64,000 bases of DNA, from NCBI RefSeq assembly GCF_026914265.1, contig NC_069129.1:23221743-23285742 (forward strand), read 5' to 3'. The translations under genes were made by a program, and so were the position numbers. The notes below the pieces were generated by a model that did not search any database, was not told the DNA's origin, and saw nothing but the letters and a program-made list of their open reading frames with translations. Positions 3,637 through 62,954 of this stretch are shown here, in pieces (positions within the stretch are counted from its first letter, which is position 1; every line of letters begins with the position of its first letter). Source of the DNA: Mya arenaria. Taxonomy: Eukaryota; Mollusca; Bivalvia; Myida; Myidae.

Positions 3637-6310
3637 TTTAGCTCACCAGAGCACGAAGTGCTCAAGGTGAACTATTGTGATCGGTCTTTGTCCGGCGTCC
3701 GTCCGTCAGTCCGTCCGTCCGTCCGTCCGTCCGTCAGTCAGTCCGTCCGTCAACAATTGCTTAAAAAACATCTTCTCTAAAACTACCACTCCAAATTCAA
3801 TAAAACTTTACAGGAAGCTTCCTTCGGTGACCCTCTACAAAAATACAACAAGGGGTCACGATTGATCAACAACAATAACAACAGCAACAACAACAAAATC
3901 GCTGACTTCCTGTTTTGCTTCAAAAAACATCTCCTCTGAAACTACCACTCCAAATTCAATTAAACTTTACAGAAAGCTTCCTTGGGAGACCCTTTACAAA
4001 ATACAACAGAGGTCACGATTGATCAACAACAACAACAACAACAACAACAACAAAATGGCCGACTTCCTGTTTTGATTTAAAAATATCTCCTCTGTAACTA
4101 CCAGTCTAAATTCAATTTAACTTTACATGAAGCTTCCTTGGGTGACCCTTTACAAAAATGCAACAAGAGATCACGATTGATCTAATACAACAATAACAGC
4201 AACAACAACAAAATGGCTGACTTCCTGTTTTGCTTAAAAAAAACACTTCCACTTCAAATTCAATGACACTTTAGATGAAACTTCCTTGGGAGACCATGTA
4301 CAAAAATACGACAAGGGGTCACGATTGATCAACAACAACAACAACAGCAACAACAACGAAATGGCCAACTTCCTGTTTTGTTTTAAAAAAAATCTCCTCT
4401 AAAACTACCAGTCAAAATTCAATGAAACTTTACAGGAAGCTTCCGTGGGTGACCCTCTACAAAAATACAACCAAAAGTCACGATTGATCAACAACAACAA
4501 CAACAACAACAGCAAAAACAACAAAATTGCTGACTTCCTAGTTTGCTTTAAAAAAACATCTTCCCTGAAACTACCAGTCCAAATTCAATTTAACTTTACA
4601 GGAAGCTTCCTTCGGTGACCCTCTACAAAATTACAACAAGGGGTCACGATTGATTAACAACAACAACAACAACAACAACAGCAAAAACAGCAAAATGGCT
4701 GACTTCCTAGTTTGCTTTAAAAAAACATCTCTGAAACTACCACTCCAAATTCAATGAAACTTTACAGGAAGCTTCCTTGGGTGACCCTCTAAAAAATACA
4801 ACAAGGGGTCACGATTGATCATCAACAACAACAACAACAACAACAACAAAATGGCCAACTTCCTGTTTTGCTTTAAAAAAACATCTCTAAAACTTCCAGT
4901 CCAAATTCAATAAAACTTTACAGGAAGCTTCCTTGGGTGACCCTCTACAAAAATACAACAAGGGGTCACGATTGATGAACAACAACAACAAAATGGCCAA
5001 CTTCCTGCTTTGCTTAAAAAACATCTTCTTTGAAACTACCAGTCCAAATTAAATGAAACTTTACAGTAAGCATCTTTTTGTGACCCTCTATAAAAATACA
5101 ACAGGGGGTCACATGATTGAACAACAACAACAACAGCAGCAGCAACAACAACAAAATGGCTGACTTCCTGTTTTGCTTTAAAAAACCATCTCTTCTGAAA
5201 CTACTAATCTAAATTCAATGAAATTTTACAGCATGCTTCCTTGGGTGACCCTCTACCAAAATACAACAAGGGGTCACGAATGATCAACCAAAACAACAAC
5301 AGCAACAACAACGAAATGGCCAACTTCGTGTTTTGCTTTAAAAAACATCTCCTCTAAAACTACCACTCAAAATTCAATGAAACTTTACATGAAGCCTCCT
5401 TGGGTGACCCTCTACAAAAATACAACACGGGGTCAAGAATGATCAACAACAACAACAACAAAATGACCGACTTCCTGTTTTGCTTTAAAAAAAACATCTT
5501 ACCTGAAACTACCAGGCCAAATTCATTTTTACTTTACAGGAAGCTTCCTTCGGTGACCCTCTACAAAAATACAACAAGGGGTCACGATTGATCAACAACA
5601 ACAACAACAACAAAATGGCCAACTGCCTGGTTTGCTTTAAAAAACATCTCTAAAACTACCAGTCCAAATACAATGAAACTTTACAGGAAGCTTCCTTAGG
5701 TAACCTTCTACAAAAATACAACAATGGGTCACATTTATCAACAACAACAGCAACAACAACGAAATGACCAACTTCCTGTTTTGCTTTAAAAAAAATCTCT
5801 TCTAAAACTACCAGTCAAAATTTTATGAAACTTTACATGAAGCTTCCTTGGGTGACCCTCAACAAACATACAACAAGGGGTCACGATTGATGAACAACAA
5901 CAACAACAAAATGGCCGACTTCCTGTTTTGCTATAAAAAACATCTTCTCTGAAACAACCAGTCCAAATTCAATGAAACTTTACAGGAAGCTTCCTTTGGT
6001 GACCCTCTACAAAATACATCAAGGGGTCACGATAAATTAACCACAGCAACAGCAGCAACAACAGCAAAATGGCTGACTTCCTGTTTTGCTTTAAAAAACA
6101 TCTCTGAAACTACCAGTCCAAATTCAATGAAACTTTACAGGAAGCTTCCTTGTGTGACCCTCTACAAAAATTCAACAAGGGTCACGACTGATCAACAACA
6201 ACGACAACAACAAAATGGCCAACTGCCTGGTTTGCTTAAAAAAAACATGTCTAAAACTACCAGTCCAAATTCAATGAAACTTTACAGGAAGTTTCCATAG
6301 GTAACCATTC
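3636..6310. repeat. Tandem array of ~155-bp units headed by a TTTAGCTCAC-type bivalve element
   Basis: The left end (3636-3760) has a head beginning ttttttagctcaccagagcacgaagtg followed by a (gtcc) tract. About 16 tandem units of roughly 145-165 bp follow. Each unit has the landmarks gacttcctgttttgcttt, aaaacatct, aaactaccagtccaaattcaatgaaactttacaggaagcttcc, gtgaccctctacaaaaatacaacaaggggtcacgattgatcaac, and an (aac)n stretch. Unit starts at the cttcctg word fall near 3905, 4063, 4220, 4370, 4540, 4705, 4860, 5000, 5165, 5320, 5470, 5625, 5770, 5920, 6078 and 6226. The array stops inside a unit near 6310 with no matching right end. Short frames here come from the repeat and are not genes. Confidence 0.9.
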
Positions 6311-21000: not shown

Positions 21001-24000
21001 AATAACTACATAAAATCATAAAGCGGTCAGTCAATGAATAAATTAAATAGCGTACATAATTTCGCAAGGGTTTGATATTCGTGCTTTATCGCAAATCGAT
21101 CAGTGCAAGCAAAACAATTATAAATTTTTGATTAAATGGCTAAGCAAATTTTAAACCACGCAAACTGGCTAACACAAAAATAAGAGAGCAAATATTGCCC
21201 TGTATCGCTCACATCAGTACCAGGAGAAACTACTAAAGCAAGCTATTGTCAAGGAAATCATTGGTTGCAAAGAAAATGTGGTTGCTAAGAAATTAGTGGT
21301 TGCCAAGGATGTTCACAGTTGTAAGGGAAACTAAGGAAGCAAGTTATTGCCATGGCAGACAGAAAGAAGATGGTGGTTGCTAATGAGATACATGGCTGTT
21401 AAGGGGATCAAGTAATTGCCAAGGAAGTCATTGGATCTAATTTAAAAGGTATTTGCTTTGTTAGTTAGTGGTAGCGAAGGATGTACATGATTGCTTAGAA
21501 AATGCCGTTAACTAGGCAAGCAGGCCATTGCCGAGGTTGTCGTTCGTTAATAATAATTAATGTGGTTAAAAAGAAAGTTAATGGTTGCTAAGAAGGTCCA
21601 TGTTTGTTAAAGGAAGATTTGGTGGCTACGGAAGCAAGTTGCTGCTAAGGAAGTTGTTTCGAACAAAGACTGATGCAAACGAGAATTTGTGGTTGCTAAC
21701 GAAGTCGGTGTTTGAAAAGAAACGTAAGTGTTGCAAGGGAAGTAAGGCCTTTAGAAGAAAGTTTGTAGAGGACCACTAGACAAAGCTACAAACTGAATAT
21801 CTCAGCTCAGGGCACCGGGACGGGGCCAATCATGACATCAGGGACAATTTGAACACACATTGTAAGGACTATAGAACAATGCTACATGCCAAATAATTTG
21901 GCTCTTGGCATTGCTGTTTTGGGGGATGTATTCCTTATTACTATAAGACAATGAAAAATAATTAACCAGGAGCAGGCTATCTTTGACCCTAGGGCATGAT
22001 TTGACCAATCTTGGTGAAGGACGTCTAGACAATGCTATTTTAACTCGATGTCTCGTCGTTTTGGACAATAAGTCTTCCTGAATTGAACGATCTTGGTAGC
22101 GGACCACTAGACAATGCAACATGTCAAACAACTAAGCTCTGGTTTCTGGAGAATATTTTAAGATGTTCTTTTAACTGGCCATGGCGACAAGAACTCTCAA
22201 TGGAAACTATTGAAAGAGTATCAACCAAGGATAATTCGTGTGACATTTGGTGAAGTTTGACCAGGCGGAATTGTAAGAAGGAAAATTCGTTTAAAACAAC
22301 TGCTTGCGACGGGAAACGTACTCCGGACAAGACACCTACCATAATAGCTTACCCATAAGAAACTTCGTACTGAGATGAGTTAGAAACGCGTAAACAGGAA
22401 CCTCGTGCAAAATACATATATACAGTAGCGTACCTGTTGTAAGGACATGTACACACATCCAGTAATATCCGTCAGTATTGAAATCCGGGTCAGAAACACC
22501 AATGAGAATGGACGTAATCACAAGAATCATCATCATCGCGTAGCTGTATAAACTTGTCAGCTAGGGATAGGAAAAAACACCGTGTGAAATTAGTTCGAAG
22601 CTGCAGCCCATTGTACTGAACTGGTGAAGTCTTTGGTTAAGTTGAAGTTGACCAAAATATTTATTAATTGGTCAATAAGCATCCGAAAATTATTTAACCA
22701 ATAAAATCATTTAAATTACCAGCCAATGATAACATGTGGACAACTTATATATACATCCAAGTTTTGTACACTAGGCTGCAGGTAGTCAAAACAGAGACAA
22801 GTTTCTTACTTTAGCATTGTCACCTGCACCTGTTCAAACCTCCCCCGCATCCATGATGAAGAACATCGTATTTAATTCAATGTAACAGTGACCTCATACA
22901 ATTCCAAACATAACTGTTCTGTTCAGTAAATTAACACCTTCTATGGCACCTTTGACACATAAAACAAACATGAAACACAAACAAACTTTAAATCCATATT
23001 AATCAAACACATACCTGCCTGTAAAGCGCGAGCTGTCCAGTGCAAAGTATCACAGTTATCAAGTTGTGGAGGGAAAGAAAAACGGGCATTGGCTGAAAAG
23101 TAGTATGGTTAAAAGATTCAACACATCACGCAATGGAATAGATAGTGCTGGTAAAGCAAATATACTCCTATCTGTTTACGTATTGGCATTTAAAATTAGT
23201 GTTACATTAACCATCACATGATTTATAGCAGGTATACCTGCCATTGGTTATCTCATTTCCTTTTCATTACATATTCGCAAATACATTTACATTTCATAAT
23301 CCCAATGCCAACCATATGCAAGGTTATTGACAAATACTTTTCTAAATAAAAAAAATCCTTAATTGTTTGCTAAGCATCAACTTTAAAGTGAAGTAAATTT
23401 TACTCATAGGAGATTGTTCTAACTATTTTAAGACATGTATTCAACTAGTATATCCTATTATTGTATTGATGTACATGATAGCAAGGGATGTGTTATAAAC
23501 TGGATCCAGCTGACTATTTAGTGTTCATTCTACTCTGAATCTAGATGTGAATTTGTTCTATTCAGTATCTGGCCATTCACTGAATGTTTTTTCCTACTCT
23601 GTATCACGCCATGTATTAAGGTATTGGTTTACTCTGCATCTGGCCATCTATTAAGAATTTGTCCTACACAGTATCTGGCCATCTATTAAGAATTTGTCCT
23701 ACACAGTATCTGGCCATCTATTAAGAATTTGTCCTACACAGTATCTGACCATCTATTAAGAATTTGTCCTACACAGTATCTGACCATCTATAAAGAAGTT
23801 GTCCTACACAGTATCTGGCCATCTATTAAGAATTTGTCCCAAACAGTATCTGGCCATCTATTAAGTGTTTTTCCTACTCTGTATCTGGCCATCTGCTAAA
23901 TGCTTGTTCTACTCTGTATCTGGCCATCTGATAAGGGTTTGTTCTACTCTGTACCTGGCCATCTGATAAGGGTTTGTTCTACTCTGTATCTGGCCATCTG

Positions 24001-27000
24001 ATAAGGGTTTGTTCTACTCTGTATCTGGCCATCTGATAAGGGTTTGTTCTACTCTGTATCTGGCCATCTGATAAGGGTTTGTTCTACTCTATATCTGGCC
24101 ATCTGATAAGGGTTTGTTCTACTCTGTATCTGGCCATCTGATAAGGGTTTGTTCTACTCTGTATCTGGCCACCTGATAAGGGTTTGTTCTACTCTGTATC
24201 TGGCCATCTGATAAGTGCTTGTTCTACTCTGTATCTGGCCATCTGATAAGGGTTTGTTCTACTCTGTATCTGGCCATCTGCTAAGTGCTTGTTCTACTCA
24301 GTATCTGGCCATCTGATAAGGGTTTGTTCTACTCTGTATCTGGCCATCTGCTTAGTGCTTGTTCTACTCTGTATCTGGCCATCTGCTAAGTGATTGTTCT
24401 ACTTTGTATCTGGCCATCTGATAAGCTTAAGGGTCTGTTCTACTCTGTATCTGGCCATCTGCTAGCTGCTTGTTCTACTCTGTATCTGGCCATCTGATAA
24501 GGGTTTGTCCTACTCTGTATGTGGCCATCTAATAAGGGTTTGTTCTACTCTGTATCTGGCCATCTTATTAGGGTTTGTTCTACTCTGTATCTGGCCAAAT
24601 TTATAAGTATTCATCACAAACGGATTTTACTATAAATGCCAGCTGGATACAAATATAAAATTGTTTATGCCCAACAGTTTTTAACTTTATAAGTTCAAGC
24701 TCACAGTACCAGTTTTGCAAGTGCCTTGGACCCTGAGTATATTGATCCAACAAATAGAAGCATCCCAGGCAACCAGTTGGCTACATCATATCTGAAATCA
24801 TTCATTTTTAAACAATACATTTTCATGATGTAATATCAGTTTATCTGAACCTGTTTAAAACATCAGTTTCAAGAAAATAAACCAATTAAGTTTTTAAAGA
24901 GTTTTTATAATACAAACATTTATTGTAAAAAATAAATATTCACAAATTCGTATCAACTCGGTATAATTTTCCACAATAGGAAAATGTACATTTATTGTAA
25001 AAAATAAATATTCCAAAATTTGTATCAACTCGGTATAATTTTCCACAATAGGAAAATGTATGTGTATTTTGACATTGGCTTATCAGCTGCAAACAATAAG
25101 GTTGGGGCAAAGTGATGTTATGTGTGTCTTCCTCTTGTTTTTAATTCTCTTAAAAGTGTCTAATATACCTTGTGATGTTCTCCATAAGTGGTGGCACATG
25201 CCTCGCTGTCACAAGCAAACTAAGCATTAAAAAACCAACAAGAGTCTGCCATCTGGAACAACAAACAGCAATGTAGTAGGTTAGATGTAGAAAAGTAAAT
25301 GTGACTAAAATTGGATTTAACAGTATAAGTTGTTCTATCTGTTTAGGTCAGAACATTTGTTAATATCATCTATGCATACATAGCTAAATAACAAATTGGA
25401 TAAGGCCTCTTGAAATATATCATTACCCTACTCCCTCATAGAAAAGATGTCAACTAAAATGATAGCTTCATAAAGTGTTTTCAGACAAACCTAAGGCCTA
25501 AATAATATTTTTGGTTCAGGTTACCCGACCCTACTTCTGAAAAAAGTGCTGACCCTACTGCTTCATAGTCCTTTATTTTTTTGTTTTTTTAAAGTGTGCC
25601 TTTTAATACAGTCAAAACACGTTGGCTCTATATCACATGGCTTGATTTCCTCGTTGGCTTGAATTTGATGTAAAGGACTGATTTATTTAATCTATGTAAA
25701 CATTACAACTTGGCTCGATATTTGCAAGGCTCAAAGTATTTTGGCTGGTCTCACGGAAATCGAGCAAACGGGTTTCGACTGTATGTAGTTTAAAACCTTT
25801 TTAGAGTTACACAGAAGATTTCTTCAACGTCATTCCTCAAAGATGACAATAACGTTTTGACATAAAGCCTCATAAAAAAATTATTAAAAAAGCCTACTTA
25901 CCCTACCTATTTTTAAAAAGGATGTAACCCTAACCAAACCAAATTTTGCCTAAACAATATCAATCAACAGTTAAAATATATGTTGACAAATTATGCTACA
26001 ATTTATTATTTATATAAAACTCGCTATTTCTATCTGTCCACAGTGATTTAATGGATAATGGACATGTTTCCCGACTGCAGACCTAGAGTTTAAAGTGACT
26101 GGCTCATGTGTTTGGACCAAAAATTAGTTTTCCCGGTAATGCATCTGAAAACACTTTAACATTATTTTACTCTATGATATTGAAATTGCACAAAAAAAAT
26201 ACAGTTATAGCACTAAAAATATTTTGGTTTTAGAGGTGTTCAAACCCGGCAGAGTCAAGAAAAAAATAGAAAACAGCCAGCTAGTCCACACGGCCACCGG
26301 GACTTTAACAATGTGGTGGATATGTTGACCTGTTAGGGATACATTGATTACATCACATGATAATGTCAATCAACCAATCACGCAACACCACAGTTGAATT
26401 AATTTTCAAACGCATTATTAATGCTAATGAAAATTGTGGTCTTCAAAGACGTCATATTTGAGCAAATATCAACATTTGCTGAAGGCTTCCAACTTTGGTA
26501 TTTTTGTTTATGGTTATGATTTGCCATACTTTATTTTGTAATTTTATTTTTAAAAAAGTACATTTTACAAACCATGAGCGAGTTACTTTAAGGGTATGAA
26601 TCATGCATTTTTGGTGATTTTTTTTGTTTGCATTTTTTTCCTTATTTTTCTTTTTTATCATCACATAATATTATGTCAATTTGATTTGATGTCTAATAAC
26701 ATTTGATTATGATTTGTTTTTAAAAAATATGCAGAAAAGTTGTATTTAATTACATCAAAATTGCTGCTTAGCCTAAATGTGCCTTTAATTTTTTTTAATT
26801 TGATTACATCAAAATAGCTGCTTATGTACCTTTAAAAAGTTCATGATGCATACAGATTATGCAATTTATTGCAACACATTTTGTCATTAAAAATCTGCAG
26901 TATTCAAAATCTGCTGCTTTGAGGAAACTTTTGCTCTTTTAATATGAGGCTAAACTTGCTTGCTGGAATGGTATTATACCATTGAAAGCATTGCAGACAG

Positions 27001-37159: not shown

Positions 37160-38227
37160 CAAGAGTTGTCACAGAGACAGCAGGCTCGACTATTCCGCCG
37201 CTGTTCAGTGTAAGGATTGAAAAGTTTTGGCGAAACATGCATGGATATCTGTTAGATAAGATTTCAATGCAATTCATGTGGTGAGATATTAACATAAATG
37301 TGGTTACATGGAAATTTTCAACCAGAATGTTTAAGTCTAATAATAAAGGGCAATTATTTGCAAAATACAGTTATATATCTTGGTTATTCAATGACATTGA
37401 GTGGTTGAATACCATTCTATAAAGTCCCAATGCAATACATCGAGTAGTTGCTGAGAAATTTACCTATGTGTGCTTACACGCAAAACCTTAACTAGAATTT
37501 CTATGTTGAATAATAAAGGGCAACTATTTGGATTAAATGCAATTGTATGAGTCTCAATGCAATACATCAAGTAGTTGCTTTGATATTTATATAATGTGTG
37601 CTTGCACACAAAACCTTAATCAGAATATCTAAGTCGAATAATAAAGGCCTATCATTTGCATTAAATGCAAAGTGAAGTTATCTTACTAGGTTAATTAATT
37701 AGGTTGGATGGTTGAGTACCTTGTAACATGTCTCAATGCAATACCCCAAGTAGCTGCTGAGATATTAACCTATGTGTGCTTACACGCAAAACCTTAACCA
37801 GAATCTCTAAGTCGAATAATAAAGTCCTATTATTTGGATTAAATGCAAACTACAGTTATCTAACTTTGTTAATTAAGTAGGTTGGATGGTTGAGTACCAT
37901 TGTATCAAGTCTCAATGCAATACCTCAAGTGCTTAATGAGATATTTACCTATGTGTGCTTGCCTGCAAAACCTTAACCAGAATTTTTAAGTAAAAAAATA
38001 AAAGCCTATAATGTGCATTAAATGCAAAGTAGAGTTTTCTAGCTTGGTTAATTAAGTAGGTTGGATGGTTGAGTACCATTGTATCAAGTCTCAGTGCGAT
38101 ACCTGAAGGAGTAACTGAGATATTAACCTATGTGTGCTTGCACACAAAACCTTAACCAAGGTGTGACGCCAACACCGACACTTGGATGTGTAGTATAGCT
38201 CTCCATATTCTACGAATAGTCGAGCTA
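37160..38227. repeat. Element with inverted ends enclosing ~6 tandem units of ~180 bp
   Basis: The left end (37160) reads caagagttgtcacagagac, then ggctcgactattccg (37183). The right end has acgaatagtcgagc (38212-38225), the inverse of gctcgactattcg. Inside, units of about 175-185 bp repeat: ccagaatctctaagtcgaataataaagg, attaaatgcaaa, ttatctaacttggttaattaagtagg, ttggatggttgagtacc, tctcaatgcaatacctcaagtag, gctgagatattaacctatg, tgtgcttacacgcaaaacc. A single diverged unit of the same family sits at about 58615-58850. It is non-coding. Confidence 0.85.
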
Positions 38228-45866: not shown

Positions 45867-48796
45867 ATGATCGCGGCGCAGAAAATAGCTGGTTTGACAG
45901 CAACAACTCAAGTTGTTCCAAACTTCATAGCCCCTGTGGTACCTCTTCTAACAAAACATCTAGAGAAAATATATGTACCTAAAGCGAAACCGGGCATCCA
46001 GCCTTTGCCAAAAGCTGCCTTCTTAGCCTCGGCACAAATAACTGGCAAGTGTTTTTGTTATGTAACTGTAAAATATTTAATATATCATTTATTACAAATA
46101 AAATCCTCTTGGTTTGATTACGAATAAAGTCATCTAAGGTAGAGGTAATGAAATCACAGTGATTGTTTAATTATTTTTTTGTTCTGTTTGTAACATTAGT
46201 CTCAAGATGTAGATGCATTAATGTGACACTTTAGTGTAAAATGGTAGACGTTCAATGCAGGATTCTTCTTATACCTTCACTTAAAAGACATTTACTATGA
46301 GATCCTTTTAATCCCTAATGTCCAAACTAGTTTGAATGTGTGTATGGTGTGGGGGGATTTGATTTTGAAGTTGTGTTTTATGTAAGAGAAATATTTTATG
46401 TTTGAAATAGATAATAAAGGGTTATATCCTTATTTTCCCATGTAATTGAAATTTTTTTTTGCACAAAACAAGCATTTAATGCATGAAAAACCCAGGCTAT
46501 ACCTTAAGTATGTAGATAAGCTTCTTTTGACATGGACAACTATATTGCATACATCATACTTACAAAAAATATGGCCTCAACTGTACTCATTCTGTGTTCT
46601 TAAAAAAGTTTCGATATTTTTATAGCAAAATGAACAATATGAAGTAATACTTAGGTTTAGATTATTTAAACTTGTATAAAAACGTTTTTAACTTATGTAC
46701 AAACAAAACAAAACAAACATCAATAAAGAAATTTGTACACGGAGCTAATATGTTATAACATATTTAATGGTAATATTTCTTGTTTTTATGATATTTTATA
46801 GACTTTATATGCTTTAACCAGGAATAACAATCAGAATGACTACCGAAAATGGTGACCGAACAATTCGTACATGTAGGATTTGTTATATTAATTTCAAAAA
46901 GACGTAAAACAGATCCATCCACATACAATTTTTTTGACAAAAAAATCACAATCTTAAGTTAAGTTTCAACTTAAGCAGGGTTAGAATACTATGACAAATA
47001 AGCCTACAAAATCACATTGTTTTGCAAAGGTGACCGTCTTTTCTATTATTTCTAGGACCAGCCCAAGTGAGGTATTCACACACAGATATTCGAGTACCAA
47101 AGCTAGACGATTATCGCCGGCCAAGCAATGTCTCAAATACAGACAAAAACGAGGGTGGTCCCCAGGCCAAGACTTTCACATATATTTTTGCAGGAGGTTT
47201 GTCTTCAACTTGTCAATGTAATATTTATTGATTCTGAATTACAAAGAAATATTGTTAACAAGGTTTTAAAATATTGTTAACAAGGTTTTATTCTTGTCCC
47301 GAAGTTCGGCCCCATTCCCCACCTGAAAAAGTATATTTTTCACCTGCCCATGTGAGAAAAATGGAGGAGCATTGTCCTCTTAACATTCAGCAATTGAATC
47401 AATAAAATAGTGCCATTCATGAAATGTCCATAAATTGTGTTTAATACAAAGTTTGAAAACAAGTTTAAAAAAAACATGTATATGAATCATGTTAGAATCA
47501 TTCCCCTTTTTGCCAAAATGAAGCTTTTTCCCCCAATTAATGGGCCCTCACTCACTCAAACACCATTCCCTTAAAAGTGAAAAAAACACTGGTTAAATGT
47601 ATTTGAAGTTGTTGCCACACAATTGTACCTTTATTCCAATTCAAATGGATTTTTCAATGTCAGACCTTTTTAAATGAGAACGAGTCTGTAGAAAGAAAAT
47701 AGTTTTTTTTTTTCATTTTTTACAGTTTCTTGGTGAGAGGCAGAAATTTGTGATTTATGAAAATTATTCATAAATTCTGCTTTAGGCGATTTAACAAGGA
47801 ACTGTTGAAATAGAATTTAAGAAATATCTCCGGTGTGTCACTAGTGTGTTAAAATGAGATTATTTCATTTCCAGGATTTGGGGCAGCTGGCGCACTGTTG
47901 GGAAAGGATGTTGTTAATGGTGTAATTTCGTATATCAGTGCTGCGAAGGACATTGTTGCTCTGGCGAAGATCGAAATCGGTCTCAGTGACATCCCTGAGG
48001 GAAAAACGATGACCTTCAAATGGCAGGGAAAGCCGCTGTTTGTACGTCACAGGACAGCTGATGAGATTGAAGAGGTTCGGTCTGTGGATATGGCTGCATT
48101 GCGTGACCCACAACCGGATGAGGAAAGAACCCAGAATCCCAAGTGGCTCATCTGCATAGGAATATGCACACATCTTGGTATACAACGTGCTATTTAATGT
48201 CTGAAAATAGGGCCGAACTTTTTGTTCACTCTTAACTAGTGAATAACCTTAGCACAGATATATCGAAATGCAGTCTTATTCTCTTAATAACATGACACCC
48301 AGGATTTTAAAGGGGTGGCTTTGCTTTGAAAACTGTTGAAAGAGGGCTTTTTAGTAGAAGTCTTAAAAACAGCCTGATAAAAGTAATTGGATATGTACAA
48401 AAAAGCAACTGTATCTAAAATGTAAAAATATAGAAATGGTGAATTCAGAAAGCAGTTTTCACATTTTTATTTTTTAATTTTGGCGGCAATTCATGTCGTT
48501 GGTTTTTGTTTTATGTCATGCAAAATAGCATAAATTAGTGCACAACTTTTTACAAAGCAGAAATGAAAAGAATTAGTTTTTAGACCTCAAAAACATTTAT
48601 CACCATTTGTTATCCTTTGATTTCCTTAGGATGCGTGCCAGTAGCAGAAGCCGGTGACTTCAACGGCTATTATTGCCCTTGCCACGGATCCCACTACGAT
48701 GCTTCTGGACGTATCAGGAAGGGCCCCGCTCCTCTCAACCTTGATATACCGTATTACGAGTTTATGGATGATGAAACAGTCGTTGTTGGGCAGTAG
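45867..48796 (+). CDS. UQCRFS1: Rieske iron-sulfur subunit of the cytochrome bc1 complex, four exons
   Basis: Exons 45867-46044, 47056-47196, 47875-48177 and 48630-48796 join in phase to 262 residues (human 274). All three introns are phase 1. Intron 1 uses a GC donor (ACTG|gcaagt) with an ordinary AG acceptor; the others are GT-AG. Residues 1-60 are the mitochondrial presequence region. SHTDIRVP (67-74) opens the mature N terminus, and residues about 101-128 ([18 protein letters not shown] onward) form the single membrane helix. [15 protein letters not shown] and [10 protein letters not shown] are conserved family blocks. The 2Fe-2S ligands are C204 and H206 (CTHLGC) and C223 and H226 (CPCH), with C209-C225 as the disulfide. 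It moves electrons from ubiquinol to cytochrome c1 in complex III. All key residues are present. Confidence 0.97.
47290..47600 (+). repeat. Dispersed repeat in UQCRFS1 intron 2
   Basis: It contains ttcggccccattccccacctgaaaa, ggaggagcattgtcctcttaacattcagcaa, cccctttttgccaaaatgaag and ttaaaagtgaaaaaaacactgg. The same order is found at about 58207-58440 in the same orientation, roughly 75% alike. Confidence 0.65.
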
Positions 48797-50929: not shown

Positions 50930-51280
50930 ACAGGTATGATGAGAAAAACAAGAGCGCCACGGAGGGAACGCCAACGCAAGCTGTTTTAAATCAGAGGTGT
51001 ATTAAAGCTTTGGATAATAACATTTATGATACACCTCAGCCCTTCTGATAATAACAAATTCAGATAACACCTAAGAAATTCCATTAACTTTTAATTATAG
51101 AACACCTCAGCCCTTATGATATTGATACATTTCTGAGCTTTGATAGGTGTGAACAGATAAGACCTTAAAAAATGCAAAAACTATGAGTTTAGCAGCACTT
51201 TTGATAACGATGGAATTGATGCACCTCAGAATGATATCGGTACATCTTTGAACTTCTGATAATAACAATATCCATACACC
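50930..51280 (-). other. CTNNBL1 3' flank with degenerate short repeats
   Basis: On the + strand the words cacctcagcccttctgataat and related forms recur at about 51033, 51107, 51220 and 51275, an old degenerate repeat that probably lies in or just past the CTNNBL1 3' UTR. A repeat fragment (acaagagcgccacggaggg) is at 50948. Confidence 0.45.
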
Positions 51281-54200
51281 TCAAAACTTCTCAATCAGCT
51301 GCATGATATGATTTTGTTCCTCTTCTCGCAATTCTGGGTCCTTAGCATCGCCGATATTTCCAGCATATTCTGAAACACACAAAATATTGAAGGTGAGACT
51401 TGCACATGATTCTAGCACAACCGGGGACATATTCTCTGGGGCTCCATTACAATAAAGATTGTTAGACTAAAGATCGTAACTTTCAAGGCGTTACTGGCAT
51501 ACTGTAGGCTGCGTTTTGATAAAAAAATATCGTAAGGACACTGACATCATCGGTTGAATAAAAGCAAAGGTTAAAGGGGGTTAAGACACCTTTTGAAATT
51601 ACTTCAAAAGTCATTCATGTTTATTTCAAGCGACTTCCTACTGCTTAGATGAAAATGTCCGAGCAAAACCCAATCTTTAGAACTGTACATACCGGGGTAA
51701 GTCTGAAGTTTAAAGCTCTTAATCTTGATTTCATAATAAATCCCAAGTTTAAATGCCCACAATATTGGTTGATCATGATGCAAAAAAACCCAATATATTT
51801 TTAATGCATTATTATGTTTATTTCATTTGACATTAATGATTAAATTATGTGGTATTTAAATTAAAAATGATATTTTGGCTGTTTTTTAACTTGGAAATTT
51901 GTGGCCAAGTAGCTTTTAATTGAAAAATAACATATTTAAAAGCTTATAATTTTTAATCTATACACAAATAATATGTGTTTTTGTTTTGATCATTATTAAA
52001 CACTCAATTGAGTAAAACAATAATGCATTAAAATGGAAAAAAAATGCATCAAACTCTATTGTGTGCCTTGCCAAGAATCTTACCTCTCATGATGCTACGA
52101 ATTGACTTTACAGAGCCGCCTCTCATATTCAAAATTTGCTGCACTCGAGATTTAATCTAAAAAGATTGTAAAACATACTAAAATAAAATAAATGATGGAA
52201 AGTCATTCAATGGAACATGATTTTTTTTTATATTGATTTATTTGAAATTATTAAATTTTCAGTTATGATTTTGTTATTCATCTTCTTTTCTCCAAAAAAT
52301 GGAAACCTACACTGGAAGGGCCTGTGACAGATGTCTCGAGGAGAATGTAGTCGATCAGCTGTAGTGTGAACAGCCCCGCATCGAGACGACGCAGGTAAAA
52401 CTCATCCTCCATATCATCATCAACCTCCTTACTGGTGTACTTTAATCTCTAAAGGGATGGAAAAAAGAATAAATGAAAAAAAACATATATCAGGTGTGAG
52501 TAGCAAAACTTGAAAAGCACATGGTCATTTCAGAGTACCGGTACCACGTAAGACCTGATTTTCAAAAATGTTTATTTGGTGTAAAAAGTATATTAAAATA
52601 AACCCAAAGAAAAAGTAGCAAAAGGTTTAGCCCAGTCTCAAAGAAGTTCACATGTTTTGTACAGTTCATTTTAAATGCATATTTGCAATGCAATGACCAC
52701 AGCCAGAATAGCATTATCAGCCAGGCAGTAACATTCTAGCCATGGAGGAACTTCAAAGGGCTCTCAGCTAGTGTACCATTGCATAAATATTTGTTTCAGA
52801 GCCCTTAAAAAATTCTTACAGATTTTTCCCTCTCAATTTGGTCATCCACAAATCGTACTTTGTCCAGGTATTTGAAATGTAACTCCAGCAACCGTTCAAC
52901 CTGCATTGATGAAACAGAAAGAAAGATATGTATTTATTTTTGATACCAAATTTTACAGTAGATATTATGCTTATGCTAGAATATATAATATGCATGGGAA
53001 AAGGGAGAATAGAAATAAAGGAAAAAAAATCGAAATAATATGTAAAGTTTACAGGGAAAAGATGAAACTGAAGGTTAATTTATAGGATCTTTAAGTACTT
53101 TAACTTTAACCTGGCAGAAAACTGCATACCATCTAACAGAAAATTTGGTAATGATTTTCCCACATGATTAAAATTTTGATTTATTTGTTAAAAAAACCCC
53201 TGAAATAACCACTATCCAAGCGAAACAAGTGGTGTATGACCACAACAAAATCCATCTCTTTGTGAATGGGCCGAATTCAACCCCTTTTTCATTAGAATTC
53301 CCCCCAGAGCAAACAGTACACCTTCTTTCACATAACTCATAGAATAGTATTATTCAGAATTTTTCACACCTTTTCATGGTCATTCTCAATAAACTTGCTT
53401 AACAACCGTTGTCTTTGGGTGGACTGGCAATTTCTCAACATCGAGCTGATAATGGAACAGATGTGCTCTGAAAAAGATTCATATTGACATGAAATTTAGA
53501 ATAACAATTTACAATGTAATTAAACACTTTCCGGCATAAAATTAATTAAAGAATTTAATATGAGCACAGCAATCAGTGTGCGTGTGTGGTGGTGGTGGTG
53601 GTGGTGGTGGTGGTGGTGGTGGTGGGGGGGGGGTATCTCAGTAAAAAAGGGGTATTACTCAACAATCACTAAACCAAGAGTTGATGGATTTGCAACACAT
53701 GGTCTCTTGCCACATGTGTACCAAATTATGTGTAGAAAATATGCTCATGTACTATGACACTTTGGCTTTAATAGTTGCTGAGTCATGCCTCTTTTTGACT
53801 GAAAAACAACAGACAAACATTGGAGTTAGCTTCACAGTGCTCTTGAAAATACATCAAATAGCAACCTATAAGGGTTTGTGACACAAATATGCATGTTTTG
53901 TTGTTTAAAAGATTATGAAATGTCTCTAGGTTTACCGCCCATGGTCAAAAAGTACAAATTGTCCAGTGGACAAAATGAGCACAAGCCCACAAACCCTGCC
54001 AGGGATGTGATTGACAGCTGGCAGCTGGAGGGCTGAAACTTTTTCGGCCTTGGGTTTATGGGGCACTCTTTGGGTCAAAAGCGTACTGCTGTAGAAGAAA
54101 AAATGGCTTTTTAGAAGCTCTTTGAGGGCTCTCCTGACTTTAAATTTGAAGCAAACTGGAAAATTAACTTAAACAACTGAAAGCAACCAAATAGTTTTTT

Positions 54201-57200
54201 TCAGGTAAAAAAACAAAAAAACAATTATTTTTTTTTTTTGGGGGGGGGGGGGTGTCTCTGGGGCCATTAGATCCGCGAATCCGCGGACAAATCACATTTC
54301 TGCCGATTTGGTAGAATGCTTTCTGGATGTGCTCAAATTCGGGATTGTATATTAAAGGGTTTGTTAACAAATTTGATGCCAAGCACTAGTATAAGAATTA
54401 GTGCTTATTCATCCAAAAGTTTAATTTCATGATTGACTGTCCATTTCATAAATAATTTTGTAACATTAAGATACAAGTAATATGCAATACCTTCCATCTC
54501 CTCAGGTGGAGGCCCTGCCCTCCCTTGTTTTGGCGTCTTCATGAACAGTGGGAATATCGTCCGCAGACCGAGAATATCGACAAACTTTTGACAATTGTCT
54601 CGACCCTCTGGCCCAGTCATGGCATGGTTTAACACCTTGATTCCACAGTTGCGTGAAAGTTTCTTCTCTCTGTAACAGGACAGATGATAAGAAATGGATT
54701 AAAAAAAAACTTTCTAGCCCAAACTATTCAGTTACATTTGCATAATAAACATAATCCTAAAGATAAGTAGAGAATTTGTGTAATTCCACAGTTCAAATCA
54801 CATCCCAATTAAAAATTACTTTTTAGAGTTCGAAAATGCATACAATATTATGGATTACGCAATTGTTGAAAGAATGTAGCATATTCAATATGTTTTAATG
54901 TGTTTCATGAGTTGTAATTACCTGAACATATTTTCATGAGCTATAATTACCAAAGCATGAGATTCATGAGCTATAATTACCTTAGCATGAGATTCATGAG
55001 CTGTGATTACCTTAGCATGAGATTTATGAGGTGTGATTACATTAGCATGAGATTCATGAGCTATAATTACCTTAGCATGAGATTCATGAGCTGTGATTAC
55101 CTTAGCATGAGATTTATGAGGTGTGATTACATTAGCATGAGATTCATGAGCTATAATTACCTTAGCATGAGATTCATGAGCTGTGATTACCTTAGCATGA
55201 GATTTATGAGCTGTGATTACCTTAGCATGAGATTCATGAGCTATAATTACCTTAGCATAAGATTCATGAGCTGTGATTACCTTAGCATGAGATTCATGAG
55301 CTGTGATTACCTTAGCATGAGATTTATGAGCTGTGATTACCTTAGCATGAGATTCATGAGCTGTGATTACCTTAGCATGAGATTTATGAGCTGTGATTAC
55401 CTTAGCATGAGATTTATGAGCTGTGATTACCTTAGCATGAGATTTATGAGCTGTGATTACCTTAGCATGAGATTCATGAGCTGTGATTACCTTAGCATGA
55501 GATTTATGAGCTGTGATTACCTTAGCATGAGGTTCATGAGCTGGAGCCCCTCCCCCTTGAGGAACCTGTTTCTGTTGATGGGGGACATGAGGCAGGAGCA
55601 CAGGCAGTTGAAGATGTTCTCCATCATCTCAACCTCCTCTTTGGAACTGGGATCATGCCGCTTGTACCACTGTGAATACATGTGAATGGGAGCTAACATA
55701 TTGGAATTATAATGCTAACATTGAGGTCATGTATATAGCACCATTGTGAATGCACATGAATAGAATGACAACGTTTATTTCTTTTAAGGCAGATTTATTT
55801 AAAGTGACACTCTTATTCAAAATCAAGATATACTCATGTGTAATAAACTTAAATTTTGAGTGATAAACCTTTAACTACTTTCTAAATAATGCATTTATGG
55901 AAAATATAAATTATTGATAACAACATTGTACCTGTATATTTAATAGCTGAAAACGCAAAAAATATTAAATGATTGGTGAATGCTCAAAAATTTACTGTGA
56001 TCTACTTTATTCCCATAACGTAGAAACACTGAGTTGTATGCACATTTCTTTCAAATTCAACTTGGTATCCTTCATAACAACCATCCTTCATACTTATTTG
56101 AATATTAAAAGAAATGTTTAAATTGTGATAAATCTTACATGTGAATAAGAGTGCATCTTTAAGATTATCCTCCTGCCTGCTCCAGCGACATAAAGGCCAT
56201 AACAATACCTTGGAGTTTATTCTTCGACTACTAGACAAACAAAATTGCTGATACTTACAGCCAACTGTTGTAATATAACATCAATGCCATCAACATCACC
56301 AAGGATTTGTCTGTTGTCTGAAACAGAGCATAAAAGATCACAAACATGAATAATAATAATGAGATATTAGCCATGTTTTCTTTTAAATGTCATCATAAAC
56401 AATTGCTTAACGACTTAATGCACAGAATACCTTAGTTTTCGCTTTGTTTTGCCACTATTGTGACAACCCCATGTATGATTGGAATGTCTTGTTCTGACAA
56501 GGTCACCAAGTAAGATACATGTATGTACATATCAGTAAGGTCAAGTACCGCATAGACTTATATTACCATAATACGAGTACATGTACATACCAAATACATT
56601 TTTCACTGTCATAAAAATTCTTACAGTAGTGCTTGGCATCAAAAATTGTCTACAAGCCCTGCTATATACAATCCAGAATTTGAGCAAGGCCGAAAAGCAT
56701 TTTACCAGCCTGTGCTTATCTCAGCCACTGATTCTATGAATAAATTTCACAAGCTTATGCAAAATTTAAGACTTACCATCACTATTTTGTAATAAAATGG
56801 CCACGATTTCTGTTGCGTATAACTTGTTTGCATCAAAAGGCATTTTTGCCTGAAAATAAAAGCAACATCATATATATATATATCATTTATATTTATTCTT
56901 CCATATATGTTTACCTAACAAAGTGGACATCAAGCCATATAAATTTCTACTCATTAAATATGAATATACGAGTTACTACAAGGATTATAGGTCCCTATGC
57001 ATTACTAACCCTGATCCGTTTCAACAGCCACTGCAGAAGACCCTGCTGTGCTGCATCTCCACACATCTCTGGCCGGAATTCTGCCATGTTCTCTATCACA
57101 GCTGTATTGGAGATGGAAAAAATTGCATTGACATGTGATGATAATTGCTGTTGTCTGTTTTCCATTATAACTCCTAACTTAGCAAGAATGAAGACATTCA

Positions 57201-60200
57201 GGTACCCTTTTTTTGACTCTTTAATAAAAAGACAGGCTAAAAATGTTTTTTTAAATACTTCTATAAAATTTTAAAAAAGTTGGCTTAACGCAGACAATCA
57301 TAAACACCACATGAAAATAAAAGGAGTTACGACAGCTTTGCTTTCTATTCTGGAGTTATTCATACCTAGCGTATTGTGAACTCCATCAGCTTCCTCCTTC
57401 ACATTCTCATCAAGGCGCTCCAAGTTCTGTACCAGCAATGCCACCACCTGACCATCCAGCTGTCAGGAAAGATACCAAATAAAAACTAGACGATTGTTAT
57501 TGTAACCAAAACTGATGTCTCCCCCTCTGCACATTGTCTCAATATAGTGTACATTTGTTGCAAGTTATTACGATTCTTCAGAAGGTTGAAGACAAATGGA
57601 GAGGACACAATAATCTAGTCATATGACCTTTGATCTCTTAGTGTGACCTTGACCTAGAACCAAGTTGTTTATGACATTTGCTATGCACATCATCTTATTA
57701 TAGTAAACATTTCTGGCAAGTTATTTCAAAATATTTCAAGCATTATGGAGTGGACACAATTTGTGACGGACAGACGGGCGGACGGACGGACAACTTGACA
57801 AAACTATATATATATGGCTCTCCATTTAGGGCTTTTGGAGGGTGGGCACAGTGATGAAGCAAGAGAGAAAGTTGGTAAAAGGAGCCTCCCTAGACTAGAC
57901 TGAATCCTTATTTTGAGCTGAGAGGGCTTTGTTAAACCTTATGCTTCCAAATATTAGGAAAATGGTCAACTGATCTCCTGATAAAGCACTATGATTACCT
58001 TAACATATAACAAAACTTACAAGTGCTCCTACAAGAGCTGCTGCACCTTCATCACTTTCATTGAGTGTATCCACATCTGTGAGTTCTTGCATTAAATCAA
58101 CGGCTGCTATCGAGATGTCTGGAAAGAAAAAAAACAACAATGAAGTAATACATTTAACTATTTTGCAAAATATGTACATCTTAACAATATCATGTGTTTC
58201 TTGTTTCTTGAAATTCGACCCCATTCCCCTCCTGAAAAGGTAATTATTTGTCCCCTTTACAGGAGCGTTGACCTCTAAACATTTAGCAAATGTAGAAATA
58301 CAATCAATAGGTTTGTTGAATAAATGGTTTGGAAAGAAGTTGAAAATTATTTCGTATTTTCCCTCTTTGCCAAAACAAAGTTATTTCTAGAGTTCATAGG
58401 GCCCAGCCAGCATTTCCTTGAAAGTGAAAAAAACACTGACAGCAATACAATTTTTTTTCATTATTTGGTATGCTTTCAAAATACCAAGATAAACCATGTT
58501 CCTATTGGTTTTAAATATCATGTTGTCTTTAATTCTAATTGAGTTAAATAACGGTTGTATTTATGCCATGATAAAAAAAAAAAAAAAAAAATTAACGACA
58601 GCAGAACATCTCCCCACTCATGATATTGACTTATGTGCGCTTACATTAAGTATCAATGCGATACATCAAGTAGTTGCTGAGATATTAACATATGTTTGCT
58701 ATATGAAAAATGAAGTTATCTAACTTGATTCATTAAGTAGGTTGGATAGTTGGGAATACATGTTTAAAGTTTCCATGAAATACATGTTATATTTGCTGAG
58801 GAATTGACTTACATGTGCCTTAATGCATGACCTTAACTAATGTGTGTCATTTGGAAGAGTCAAGCTCAAAACTTTTTAAATATTATACCTGTATTTTCAT
58901 GTGTTAGAAGCTGAAGAAGTGACTGTACTGTATTCAACTCTACGAGAATGTGGTACAACTCCGGGACAGTTGCTATGACATGCATCTCCAGTATAACATC
59001 GTTTAGTTCTACCTCAGACTCCATAAACCTGTAAATAATATTAAATGTTCAGGTAACTAAAGTTCTAAATAAACGCAAACTCGAAAACAGAGGGTTGGTC
59101 GAGGCAATGGATGCCAAGTCTTGCACTCTTTTCATTCTATTTATACATGAATCATTATAACAAAAATTGAAAGCTTCATTTACCCAAAAAGGCAAGCAGC
59201 ATTGCTGGCCCAAAATACATAAAACATACTCAAATCATATACAACAGATAAAAATACAATAATACACAACTCTCTGTACAAGGTGTCTCCCTTAGAATAT
59301 TTTTTTGATAGGGCTGTAGCATTATAAGGGCCATAATCCAGTGGGCGGGTAATGCATGGGCATATCTGGCTTGTTTAAAAAAAAAAGAAGACTCAAGCTC
59401 TACTGGCATCTTTACTACTGGAAAAGTTTGATTGAGATACAATAAAAAATGAAGACTGTATCACGTTCAGAAGCAATTGTTTATGGACGCACGGACGACG
59501 GACACCACGCCATGGCATAAGTGCTTTTGGCCATTAGCCATTGGAGCCAAAAATGTCATTATGATGGCTGAAAAGGTTATTATAACTTATGGACTTACTT
59601 TTCTGGCATATCTGGAAACTTGATTCTCATTTCCTGATTTTTGTAGACAGCTTTCTCAAACTTCAAGACCAGCTTCTTGAGATTTGTATCATCTAATGTC
59701 TCGCCCTTGAAAAGCATATATGCAAAGTGTATTTCAATGTGTATTTTTTTTTTGAAGAAGAAAATGATCATTAATTTATAAATACTTGTTAAATATTAAT
59801 GAAAAACAATTCTAAAAACAATTTAAAGTGTTTCTTATTAAACATTTCAATCAACTTTGAACAACCAAAATTCCTACATTTGTATGATACTATTAAACTT
59901 GTAAATAGCCAGAATTACTTACAATCAAAATTTTAGCAAGCCTGCCAAGCAGTGCAAGGCAAATAACCTATTAAACCTATTAAACTAAATCTAATAGAAA
60001 TAATTCCTACATCGGCTTCATTCTCGACCATAGCCAGAATCTTTTCCCGTTCTTCTTCACTGATTCCTGACCTGGGTGCTGGTCGATCTCTGCGCCTTTT
60101 CTCGACAATTTCCACCTCTTCCTCATCACTGTCATCACTGTAATCATCTGCGGGACGTTTTCTGCTTATTGTGCTTGGTTTCTCTGGCTGGAATGATCAT

Positions 60201-62954
60201 TATAAAACATCCCGGTTAGCTTGTTAGAAGAGGGTCTAATGCTAGTGTTGGTAGTCATGAGTTGAGTTAGGTGCAATGGGCACACTGACGTCACACTTTA
60301 ACCCTGATATTTAACTTTAAATCTCGGTTTTTTTAATCTCTTTTATGCTTAAGGCTAACCAACAATCATTACAGACATTGCACACTGAAATAATGCACCA
60401 GTCAATTGTAACCACGGCCCCACCAGGTCCGGGGAATAGCAGGGACTTTGACTTTTGGTCCAGCCAAGCCCGGGCAAAATCTTCGGCTGCGGGGACGAAC
60501 TGCTGGTAAAACCCCTGCCAAATGCCCCCGCACCCCAGATAAGGCCAATTTCCCGCTAAATTTGGCGTGAAGACAAAACCACCACATTCACCCGGCACTG
60601 CAGGGCCACCTGCAAGGTAAAAACACGGCCCATTTCCCCTGCTATCCCCGGTATACCCCCGGACTTGGGGGGGGGGGGGGCGTGGTTAAAATTTACTGGT
60701 GCATAAGTGTTTTGCCTAGGGACTGAAAACCATAATCGAAACAGAATGGTGTAGAATGTATGGAATAAGGCATTCTTTCATTATCATTCATGTTAATTTA
60801 ATGACTGTTGTAAATGCATTAATTGACGGAAAAAGGATAAATGTCAAACATAATCTTGGTTAATGCACAATATTTAGGCAAGACTCGGGCAAGAGCCATT
60901 GATTCTTCATTAAAAATCAACATCTTTGGATATGTTCGGATCACATTCATCACATAGTCCAAATAATTGTACGTTGACTGATTTTTCTTTACGATTTTTG
61001 ATGTGGCAAATCCTTCACAGTATACTAATTGTTTTGTACCAAAAGTGGGTAGTTATTCCAATCGGGATTCCAGGTTAATGCATATTGCCTCCATAAAATA
61101 TCATAAAATCAAGAAGTATTACTAGATAATGTTATTTTATATTAGTTGCGTACACTAAAAATAAATATCCAACAAATGAGTTTGATGCAGTTTTTTTCAT
61201 TTCATTCTGTCAAAACATAACAATATATACATGAAAGTCACCTGCAAGGCTGCAGTTCACAGTTTTACAACAAACGGAACACTTCGGCCATGGCCGAGTT
61301 GTTACAATTGTATTTACGAGGTCTATCTCGAAGCTTGTCGGAGGTGGCCGAGTTATAACGATTGGTTCGAGTTGTTCCGCTTGGAATAATTGTTGTCTGT
61401 GTCAGTCAAGTATCGTTTTATTGGAAAGGTAAATCATGTGTTTTAATGCATTTAATGCTTGTTTTGTGCAAAATAACTTTGCACTTACATGGTAAAATAT
61501 TAATATTTATTATCCATTTCAAACATAAAATACTTCACTTAATACACGTCTTTTATTTTAGACTAATTCATCGCATAACAATATACATGACAATTTTTTG
61601 ATCTTGTTATTGTTTGTTTGTTTCGGATATGTTCGGATCACATTCATCACATAGTCCAAATAATTGTGCGTTGACTGATTTTTCTTTACGATTTTTGATG
61701 TGGCAAATCCTTCACAGTATACTAATTGTTTTGTACCAAAAGTGGGTAGTTATTCCAATCGGGATTCCAGGTTAATGCATATTGCCTCCATAAAATATCA
61801 TAAAAACAAGAAGTATTACTAGATAATGTTATTTTATATTAGTTGCGTACACAAAAAATAAATATCCAACAAATGAGTTTGATGCAGTTTTTTTCATTTC
61901 ATTCTGTCAAAACATAACAATATATACATGAAGGTCACCTGCAAGGCTGCAGTTCACAGTTTTACAACAAACGGAACACTTCGGCCATGGCCGAGTTGTT
62001 ACAATTGTATTTACGAGGTCTATCTCGAAGCTTGTCGGAGGTGGCCGAGTTATAACGATTGGTTCGAGTTGTTCCGCTTGGAATAATTGTTGTCTGTCAG
62101 TCAAGTATCGTTTTATTGGAAAGGTAAATCATGTGTTTTAATGCATTTAATGGTTGTTTTGTGCAAAATAACTTTGCACTTACATGGTAAAATATTAATA
62201 TTTATTATCCATTTCAAACATAAAATACTTCACTTAATACACGTCTATTATTTTAGACTAATTCATCGTATAACAATATACATGACAATTTTTGATCTTG
62301 TTATTGTTTGTACTGTGTTAGCAGGTGCCGTAAAATATAAGTAAACTTTTTGGAAAGTGTTAAATAATGATATGTTAAGTCGTTGCCGTAAGTGTTTTAA
62401 TTTTACGTTTAAAAGTGATTTCAAGCGGTTGATCTTTTCCCGCGTTATCGTGACGTCATTTGATAAAACGTTTCCGGCTACAATCGGGTCATTCTATTTA
62501 CAGAATGGGTAAGAAAGGATTACCGAAACGTTTTCTTAAATGAAATGAAGTATTTTTTTAACAATTCTTGGATTAAATAATGCACTATTGGTGTAAATAT
62601 AAGTAATGAATTGCGGGGTTCTTCGGACTCCACACACTCTGACCAGCCCAATTGCGTTCATACCCCGATAATGACATCAACCCCGCAATTCATTCCTTAA
62701 TAAAACGAATACTATGGTATATGTGACTATCAGACTATGCATACATGTATATTATTAGTACAAAATTATATCGAGTTGTGTCCCTTTAACAATATTTTCA
62801 TCTGAATTATTGAATATTTTCACAATTTGACTATCAGTATACACAAAGGCAATAAACGAAGTGCATATTCACGACAAGTAATATATAAAAATCAAATGAT
62901 CGGAGTTTGAGAGCGAGAAGGAACCTGAAATGATAAAAGTTCTCCAACGTCCAT
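51281..62954 (-). CDS. CTNNBL1: Beta-catenin-like protein 1, 16 exons
   Basis: Exons: 62954-62925, 60187-60011, 59705-59599, 59028-58889, 58118-58021, 57459-57366, 57101-57010, 56849-56777, 56317-56259, 55669-55521, 54669-54491, 53467-53370, 52900-52820, 52448-52311, 52156-52084 and 51369-51281. They sum to 1677 nt, 558 residues (human 563), and every phase joins. The start MDVGELLSFQ equals the vertebrate start except one residue. Basic stretches SRKRPADD and EKRRRDRPAPR form the nuclear-localisation region. Armadillo-type repeats follow (ELNDVILEMHVIATVPELYH, DLMQELTDVDTLNESDEGA, NMAEFRPEMC, CSCLM, RFLKGEGLQLMNLMLR, CQKFVDILGLRTIFPLFMK, DEFYLRRLDAGLFTLQLIDY, QQILNMRGGSV). The product is a component associated with the Prp19/CDC5L spliceosome complex in the nucleus. 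No coding damage is seen. The donor of exon 10 (55521) lies at the edge of a minisatellite made from that same junction. Confidence 0.96.
53588..53636. repeat. (GGT)n microsatellite with G tract
   Basis: Fourteen or so ggt triplets run into a stretch of nine g's, in CTNNBL1 intron 11. The poly-Trp frame across it is meaningless. Confidence 0.95.
53995..54310 (-). repeat. Inverted copy of the 49.2-kb repeat
   Basis: The reverse complement matches 49215-49515 (see that entry). A run of t's and 14 g's at 54229-54252 sits inside. It lies in CTNNBL1 intron 11. Confidence 0.65.
54906..55542 (-). repeat. 30-bp minisatellite built from the exon 10 / intron 10 junction of CTNNBL1
   Basis: On the minus strand the unit is AGCTCATAAATCTCATGCTAAG followed by gtaatcac. 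The unit at 55542-55513 is the genuine junction: its first 22 bases are the end of coding exon 10 (two base differences, encoding QLMNLMLR) and its last 8 are the start of intron 10. About 19 further units follow at exact 30-bp spacing down to 54930, plus one decayed unit. All keep GTAAT, and most keep AAG|GTAAT. Each unit has an in-frame TAA directly after the donor in the CTNNBL1 frame. Because 30 is a multiple of three, long decapeptide-repeat frames are open on both strands, but these are not genes. Confidence 0.97.
57520..57800. repeat. Dispersed bivalve repeat ending in gacggacgg words
   Basis: It contains agtgtgaccttgacctagaacc, cacatcatcttattatagtaaac, ggagtggacacaattt and the tail gacggacagacgggcggacggacgg. 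It lies in CTNNBL1 intron 5 and is non-coding. Confidence 0.6.
58200..58445 (+). repeat. Second copy of the UQCRFS1 intron 2 repeat
   Basis: It contains aattcgaccccattcccctcctgaaaa, tcccctttacaggagcgttgacctctaaacattt, ccctctttgccaaaacaaag and ttgaaagtgaaaaaaacactga, matching 47290-47600 in order and orientation. It lies in CTNNBL1 intron 4. Confidence 0.65.
58600..58855. repeat. Single unit of the 37-kb 180-bp family
   Basis: It has tatcaatgcgatacatcaagtagttgctgagatattaacatatg, ttatctaacttgattcattaagtagg and ttggatagttggga, matching the 37160-38227 array units at about 80%. Confidence 0.7.
59315..59550. repeat. Diverged copy of the 39-kb repeat
   Basis: It shares aagctctactgg, agtttgattgagatacaata, aaaatgaagactgtatcacg and caattgtttatgg with 39085-39370, and then has acgcacggacgacgg and catggcataagtgcttttggcc. 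It lies in CTNNBL1 intron 3. Confidence 0.65.
60391..60705. mobile_element. GC-rich 315-bp MITE with ATGCACCAGT ends
   Basis: The left end taatgcaccagtcaattgt (then aaccacg) and the right end (cgtggtt, then aaaatttactggtgcata) are inverted repeats of about 26 bp with four mismatches. The interior is far richer in G+C than its surroundings (ccccaccaggtccgggg, acccctgccaaatgccccc) and ends with a run of 14 g's. It is non-coding and lies in CTNNBL1 intron 1. Frames inside it are artefacts. Confidence 0.8.
60928..62313. repeat. Tandem duplication of ~0.69 kb, nearly identical copies, in CTNNBL1 intron 1
   Basis: Copy 1 (60928-61621) and copy 2 (61625-62313) align end to end with about a dozen differences by eye (single substitutions, one 4-base and a few 1-base length changes), about 98% identity. 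Each copy has a palindrome cggccatggccg (61285-61296 and its counterpart near 61981) followed by gagttgttacaattgtattt, and a second ggtggccgagttataacgat about 65 bp later. No coding frame or splice site is apparent. The origin is a recent duplication, or two haplotypes placed in series by the assembly. Confidence 0.93.
62601..62700. repeat. Hairpin-forming inverted repeat in CTNNBL1 intron 1
   Basis: AATGAATTGCGGGGTT (62605-62620) is the exact reverse complement of AACCCCGCAATTCATT (62679-62694), with a spacer of 58 bases. Flanking bases extend the stem weakly (aagt / ccttaa). It could be a very short MITE. No target duplication was identified. Confidence 0.75.

Follow-up and report, generated by a model that had tools for sequence, protein, structure and literature searches.

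In the human gene IFI6 (6-16, G1P3) a minisatellite supplies several sites that act as splice donors (Turri, Cuin and Porter 1995, as related in PMC4526556). Two of its downstream units are reported there to be used, giving three mRNA species and different isoforms. Human segmental-duplication genes carry internal tandem repeats at exon-intron boundaries, averaging 30 bp and 4 repeats, which alter splicing according to the account in PMC2812944. In the Rogers model, as outlined in PMC4974935, a new intron arises when a segment containing AGGT is duplicated in tandem.

In the window, a stretch of 64,000 nucleotides of the Mya arenaria genome to which all coordinates below refer unless a contig is named, a 30-bp minisatellite crosses an exon-intron junction of CTNNBL1. 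This array is best seen as belonging with the donor-repeating minisatellite of IFI6. In both, the repeat units carry splice donor sites that lie downstream in the same transcript (PMC4526556 for IFI6). The candidate downstream donors of CTNNBL1 differ in that their use would give an immediate stop rather than isoforms, and the gene, the animal and the repeat are others. Like the repeats of PMC2812944, the units are of minisatellite size and sit at an exon-intron boundary, but those repeats are described as varying among recent paralogues and possibly forming novel introns, whereas CTNNBL1 was found at a single locus and the intron is an existing one. Most CTNNBL1 units carry AG/GT (the slash marks the splice boundary) and could in principle supply new donor/acceptor pairs as in the Rogers model. 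Here, however, the AG/GT is an existing donor, and we found no new intron within duplicated exonic sequence; the 3' part of intron 10 is not repeat-derived, consisting of 234 bp of non-repeat sequence with its own acceptor. With splicing-factor genes whose alternative splicing is coupled to nonsense-mediated decay, the array would share an early stop on alternative use.

The host gene and the parts of it that matter here are as follows.

51280..62954, minus strand: CTNNBL1, 16 exons, 558 aa (joined gene model and homology)
55521..55669, minus strand: CTNNBL1 exon 10, 149 nt, ending ...CTC ATG CTA AG, phase 2 (human CTNNBL1 homology)
54670..55520, minus strand: intron 10, 851 bp, of which 617 bp are array
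54491..54669, minus strand: CTNNBL1 exon 11, starting AGAGAAGAAA after TTACAG

The 16-exon model translates as a single open frame and is 65% identical over 487 aligned positions to the joined pieces of the human chain. The gene matches Pfam PF08216, and a hand-joined query matched human CTNNBL1 in the PDB at E 1.2e-202. The gene and exon number proposed in a preliminary description, made from the letters of the window, are thereby confirmed. A protein search of the 1.216-Gb genome (18 contigs) returned this one locus and no second CTNNBL1.

The array itself can be divided into the following features.

54904..55543, minus strand: 30-bp minisatellite of about 21 copies across the CTNNBL1 exon 10/intron 10 junction (Tandem Repeats Finder, TRF, and register/unit list)
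55513..55542, minus strand: unit 1, the authentic junction, AGCTCATGAACCTCATGCTAAG/GTAATCAC, donor G+1 at 55520 (unit list)
54943..55512, minus strand: units 2-20, a decoy donor every 30 bp, AAG/GTAAT in 16 of 19 (unit list)
54904..54942, minus strand: degenerate unit 21 and remnant, donor CAG/GTAATT, G+1 at 54921 (unit list)
55003..55182, minus strand: 90-bp higher-order duplication within the array, units 13-15 recurring as 16-18 (unit list)
55532, minus strand: private base of unit 1, AACCTC against AATCTC in the other 19 full units, synonymous in an Asn codon

TRF reports a period of 30 with 21.4 copies, 92% matches, 0% indels and a score of 1049. Twenty full units run in a 30-bp register from 55542 down to 54943, each with its GT in register, and are followed by the degenerate unit and remnant. 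The first unit is the exon-intron junction of the gene. AAG/GTAAT is present in 17 of the 20 (units 1-13, 15, 16, 18 and 19), while units 14 and 17 read AAT/GTAAT and unit 20 reads TTG/GTAAT. On the minus strand of the window 17 of 18 occurrences of AAGGTAAT fall inside the array, which is far beyond chance. The preliminary description had given a junction-spanning array of about 20 copies, its unit made of 22 exon and 8 intron bases, with the true donor in unit 1 and about 19 decoys behind. All of this holds, with a further donor in unit 21 to be added. The 22+8 split is a choice of phase, as lag-30 identity extends one base further and leaves 23 exon bases in common (55543-55521). A DNA search of the 1.216-Gb genome placed the array DNA here and found no second place, a count that is a lower bound because the search passes over very common words.

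Variation is sparse, with nine of the 30 unit positions variable and four of these inside the donor 9-mer. The mean pairwise difference is 1.09 in units 2-12 and 2.93 in units 13-20, so the distal units are more diverged. Together with the 90-bp higher-order repeat, this suggests repeat turnover. Proximal near-identity, distal divergence and the private base of unit 1 fit turnover with one edge under coding constraint.

A transcript cut at a later donor reads at once into a stop codon.

55517..55519, minus strand: in-frame TAA for transcripts cut downstream of unit 1 or retaining the intron

Any downstream donor adds 30n bases, of which TAA is the first new codon (codon 341 of 558). Residue 340 would be the last of the truncated product, and six exon junctions lie 3' of the stop. 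We computed 19 downstream extensions; the four printed each stop at codon 341, and the remaining ones must do so as well because TAA is the first added codon. An in-frame TAA on any downstream donor, as had been claimed, is thus what the computed extensions give. A stop with exon junctions downstream is a textbook decay substrate. The premature stop upstream of exon junctions is the arrangement seen in autoregulatory unproductive splicing, though it is generic to phase-2 GTAA donors: any phase-2 exon followed by an intron starting GTAA yields TAA, and the nonsense codon is therefore not special. The only other phase-2 intron of CTNNBL1 (after exon 3, AAA/GTAAGT) likewise reads directly into TAA. 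The predicted junctions with exon 11 are AACCTCATGCTAAG followed by AGAGAAG for unit 1, AATCTCATGCTAAG followed by AGAGAAG for an AAG decoy and TATGTTCAG followed by AGAGAAG for the partial unit 21. Because unit 1 has a private base, ordinary RNA reads can tell which donor is used, and existing short-read RNA could show donor choice without new experiments.

Site strength does not favor unit 1, as its 9-mer AAGGTAATC is identical in 12 of the 19 other full units, and a stronger first donor was rejected as an explanation on the same ground. The estimated U1 duplex of the unit-1 donor (-6.6 kcal/mol against the U1 RNA end) is the fourth strongest among the 15 donors of the gene, making it a serviceable site, and units with AAGGTAATC and AAGGTAATT have the same estimate. 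Within the array, U1 is matched best by the CAG/GTAATT of unit 21 (-8.1), the most intron-proximal donor. In a small matrix built from the other 14 donors of the gene, one of which was wrong (donor 1 entered as CAGGTCCCA where the sequence reads CAGGTTCCT), the array donor scores 4.6 and 13 of the 14 score higher. Folding the array gave no unusual RNA structure (z +1.95; all 20 shuffles fold as well or better), leaving masking of the decoys by structure unsupported. Exon definition favors a short exon, and unit 1, which ends a normal-sized 149-nt exon with its own acceptor, is for that reason probably the donor mainly used. When two donors are comparable, according to PMC6002489, preference goes to the intron-proximal site, for a reason described as not known. 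That preference predicts decoy use and argues against exclusive use of unit 1.

The DNA was read at 17 donor-word arrays (13 + 4), one of which (L068) fills the whole stretch read. Protein-family evidence was sought for the peptides of four of them (L043/L053, L065, L066, L067), the rest being judged by open frames. One array lies on the donor of a second gene.

C1:25439340-25439419, plus strand: 80-nt exon of an amino-acid-transporter-type gene (Pfam PF01490; joined peptides)

Neither the peptide of this exon nor the preceding 29 residues matched Pfam alone. Combined they match PF01490 at E 2.6e-5 and 23.5 bits, just below the cut-off of 25.6, and a joined 95-residue piece passes it with 27.1 bits. 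A downstream exon passes by itself (36.4 bits), and the joined protein had no match in the PDB. We take the gene to be SLC38-like. The donor at C1:25439420 lies in copy 1 of an array in which a 56-bp unit is repeated 75 times, extending to 25443593. In the stretch read there (C1:25439300-25443600) GTAAGT occurs 70 times, and the unit joins some 30 exon bases to the beginning of the intron, much as in CTNNBL1. In this minisatellite-rich genome, donor-spanning repeats thus cross splice junctions in no fewer than two conserved genes. Their near-identical donors, some 20 in CTNNBL1 and some 70 in the transporter-type gene, offer a natural test of the choice between equal 5' splice sites. The only other protein-family match was a sub-cut-off Zn_ribbon hit for the L066 peptide (E 0.041). 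Some units of the transporter-type array contain an acceptor-like TTTGTATTAG/G and then a 24-nt stretch ending CAG/GTAAGT. At C1:45849507 (minus strand, L053) a putative exon ending ...FLRTKK has a donor GTAGGT followed by a 16-bp array of AGGTAGGTTTTATCGT. This plausible exon had no match in Pfam or the PDB, and it was left out of the tally of donor arrays for that reason.

Arrays of this kind are common in the genome. From a sample of ten fixed-position stretches of 6 kb each (60 kb), TRF reported seven arrays with a period of 10-100 and at least 10 copies, or six if two abutting arrays are taken as one, in 4 of the 10 stretches. Splice-junction-crossing arrays are thus expected by chance, arrays being dense in this small 60-kb sample. 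Three successive AGGTAAGT words spaced 16-46 bases from start to start occur 837+784 times, against 482+539 for the reversed pattern. The corresponding counts are 1291+501 against 429+428 for AAGGTAAT at 16-46 and 1690+1399 against 1177+1116 for AGGTRAGT at 47-77. Because many hits overlap within one array, and the control read in reverse is high as well, the counts indicate frequent arrays more than an excess of donors.

We favor, with a probability of about 0.7, a repeat expansion seeded at a splice junction and largely neutral, in which unit 1 is mainly used and some leak into decay is possible. Structurally, a short stretch lying across an ordinary 5' splice site recurs in tandem, and slippage or unequal exchange probably expanded an initial duplication of it into a minisatellite. 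The exon-side edge would be kept in place by selection, acting on the coding bases and on the donor of unit 1, while the rest drifts as intron, the other copies mostly being spliced out along with it. A transcript cut at a later copy meets an immediate stop and would be expected to enter nonsense-mediated decay, which we see as a loss that is tolerated rather than as a switch under regulation. At least one other gene of this genome was probably hit by such an expansion too.

How much transcript leaks is where the nearest alternatives diverge from neutral expansion. The decoys could be substantially used, so that a sizeable fixed share of transcripts decays, rising with the number of copies and subject to no feedback. 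The shared 9-mer, the stop at codon 341 with its downstream junctions, the intron-proximal preference of PMC6002489 and the use of two downstream units reported for IFI6 in PMC4526556 all speak for such a cost. Heavy loss in a conserved, single-locus spliceosome gene should be selected against, however, and exon definition favors the short exon, so we consider it unlikely. Minisatellite copy number usually varies between individuals. Donor-spanning minisatellites might be recurrent copy-number rheostats here, in which decoy number sets the share that decays and allele length the dosage of CTNNBL1 and of the C1 transporter-type gene. This is a more doubtful proposal still; if true, it could close into feedback in CTNNBL1. 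Feedback was the reading put forward in the preliminary description: the level of CTNNBL1 would shift which donor of its array is chosen, giving the protein control over its own mRNA. CTNNBL1 associates with Prp19/CDC5L and decoy use would be unproductive, both of which suit a switch. Many splicing factors control themselves by unproductive splicing, as PMC9262138 recounts. Against this, the same architecture is found at the amino-acid-transporter-type gene, and the TAA is generic. The TRF list shows no array at the other 14 donors of the gene, and CTNNBL1 does not appear in the literature on unproductive splicing among the matches listed. To our knowledge the transporter family has no role in splicing. 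While the structure described earlier (gene, exon, junction-spanning unit, decoys and nonsense codon) stands, the feedback has gained no positive support and is weakened by the generic TAA, the transporter-type array and the abundance of minisatellites and donor-word arrays in this genome; we rate it very improbable.

Equally improbable is splicing within the array, in which a unit would act as a poison microexon of 20 nt (CACAG/CTCATGAATCTCATGCTAAG/GTAATC) or would offer a recursive AAG/GT site. Inclusion of either of two tested unit versions would lead to a stop at codon 342, and at least 12 CACAG/CTC sites of the array score 6.7 in a first small acceptor matrix in which one acceptor was misplaced. 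That signal weakened once the exon 3 acceptor was corrected and exon 15 added. In the corrected matrix one of 36 array AG sites reaches 6 (6.5, TTATAG/CTC after unit 20), the second best is 5.5 (TTCAG/GTA of unit 21), and the best regular-unit AAG/GTA site shown scores -2.9. Elsewhere in the window 4.1% of 3164 AG sites equal or exceed the score of the best array site. These scores come from a weak matrix, in which the true exon-10 acceptor, left out of it, itself scores -2.1. By eye, the unit has no pyrimidine tract. Finally, tandem repeats can be mis-assembled, and the array or its copy number could be wrong in the reference. The units carry ordered point variants and the 90-bp higher-order repeat, though, and according to PMC10663159 the Mya arenaria reference was assembled from PacBio long reads, long enough to cover 640 bp with ease, so an artefact is hardly credible.

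Several other features of the window were observed. Two very similar stretches with near-identical open frames (60819-61432 and 61558-62141) lie in CTNNBL1 intron 1 at an offset of 697 bp. A frame at 48584-48796 (plus), opposite in strand to CTNNBL1 and close to its 3' end, matches the Pfam Rieske family PF00355 with 23.3 bits (cut-off 20.3). The frame at 47853-48197 had no Pfam match and presumably resembles the same gene. TRF also identified a 35-bp x 29.7 minisatellite at 23552-24597 and, at 3757-6296, a 147-bp x 16.4 satellite with internal CAA/AAC microsatellites. A 179-bp tandem family occupies 37542-38158. Its TRF consensus is similar to that at positions 1-377 (reverse strand) of the C1 stretch L040, beside another array, and because of this recurrence the family looks dispersed.
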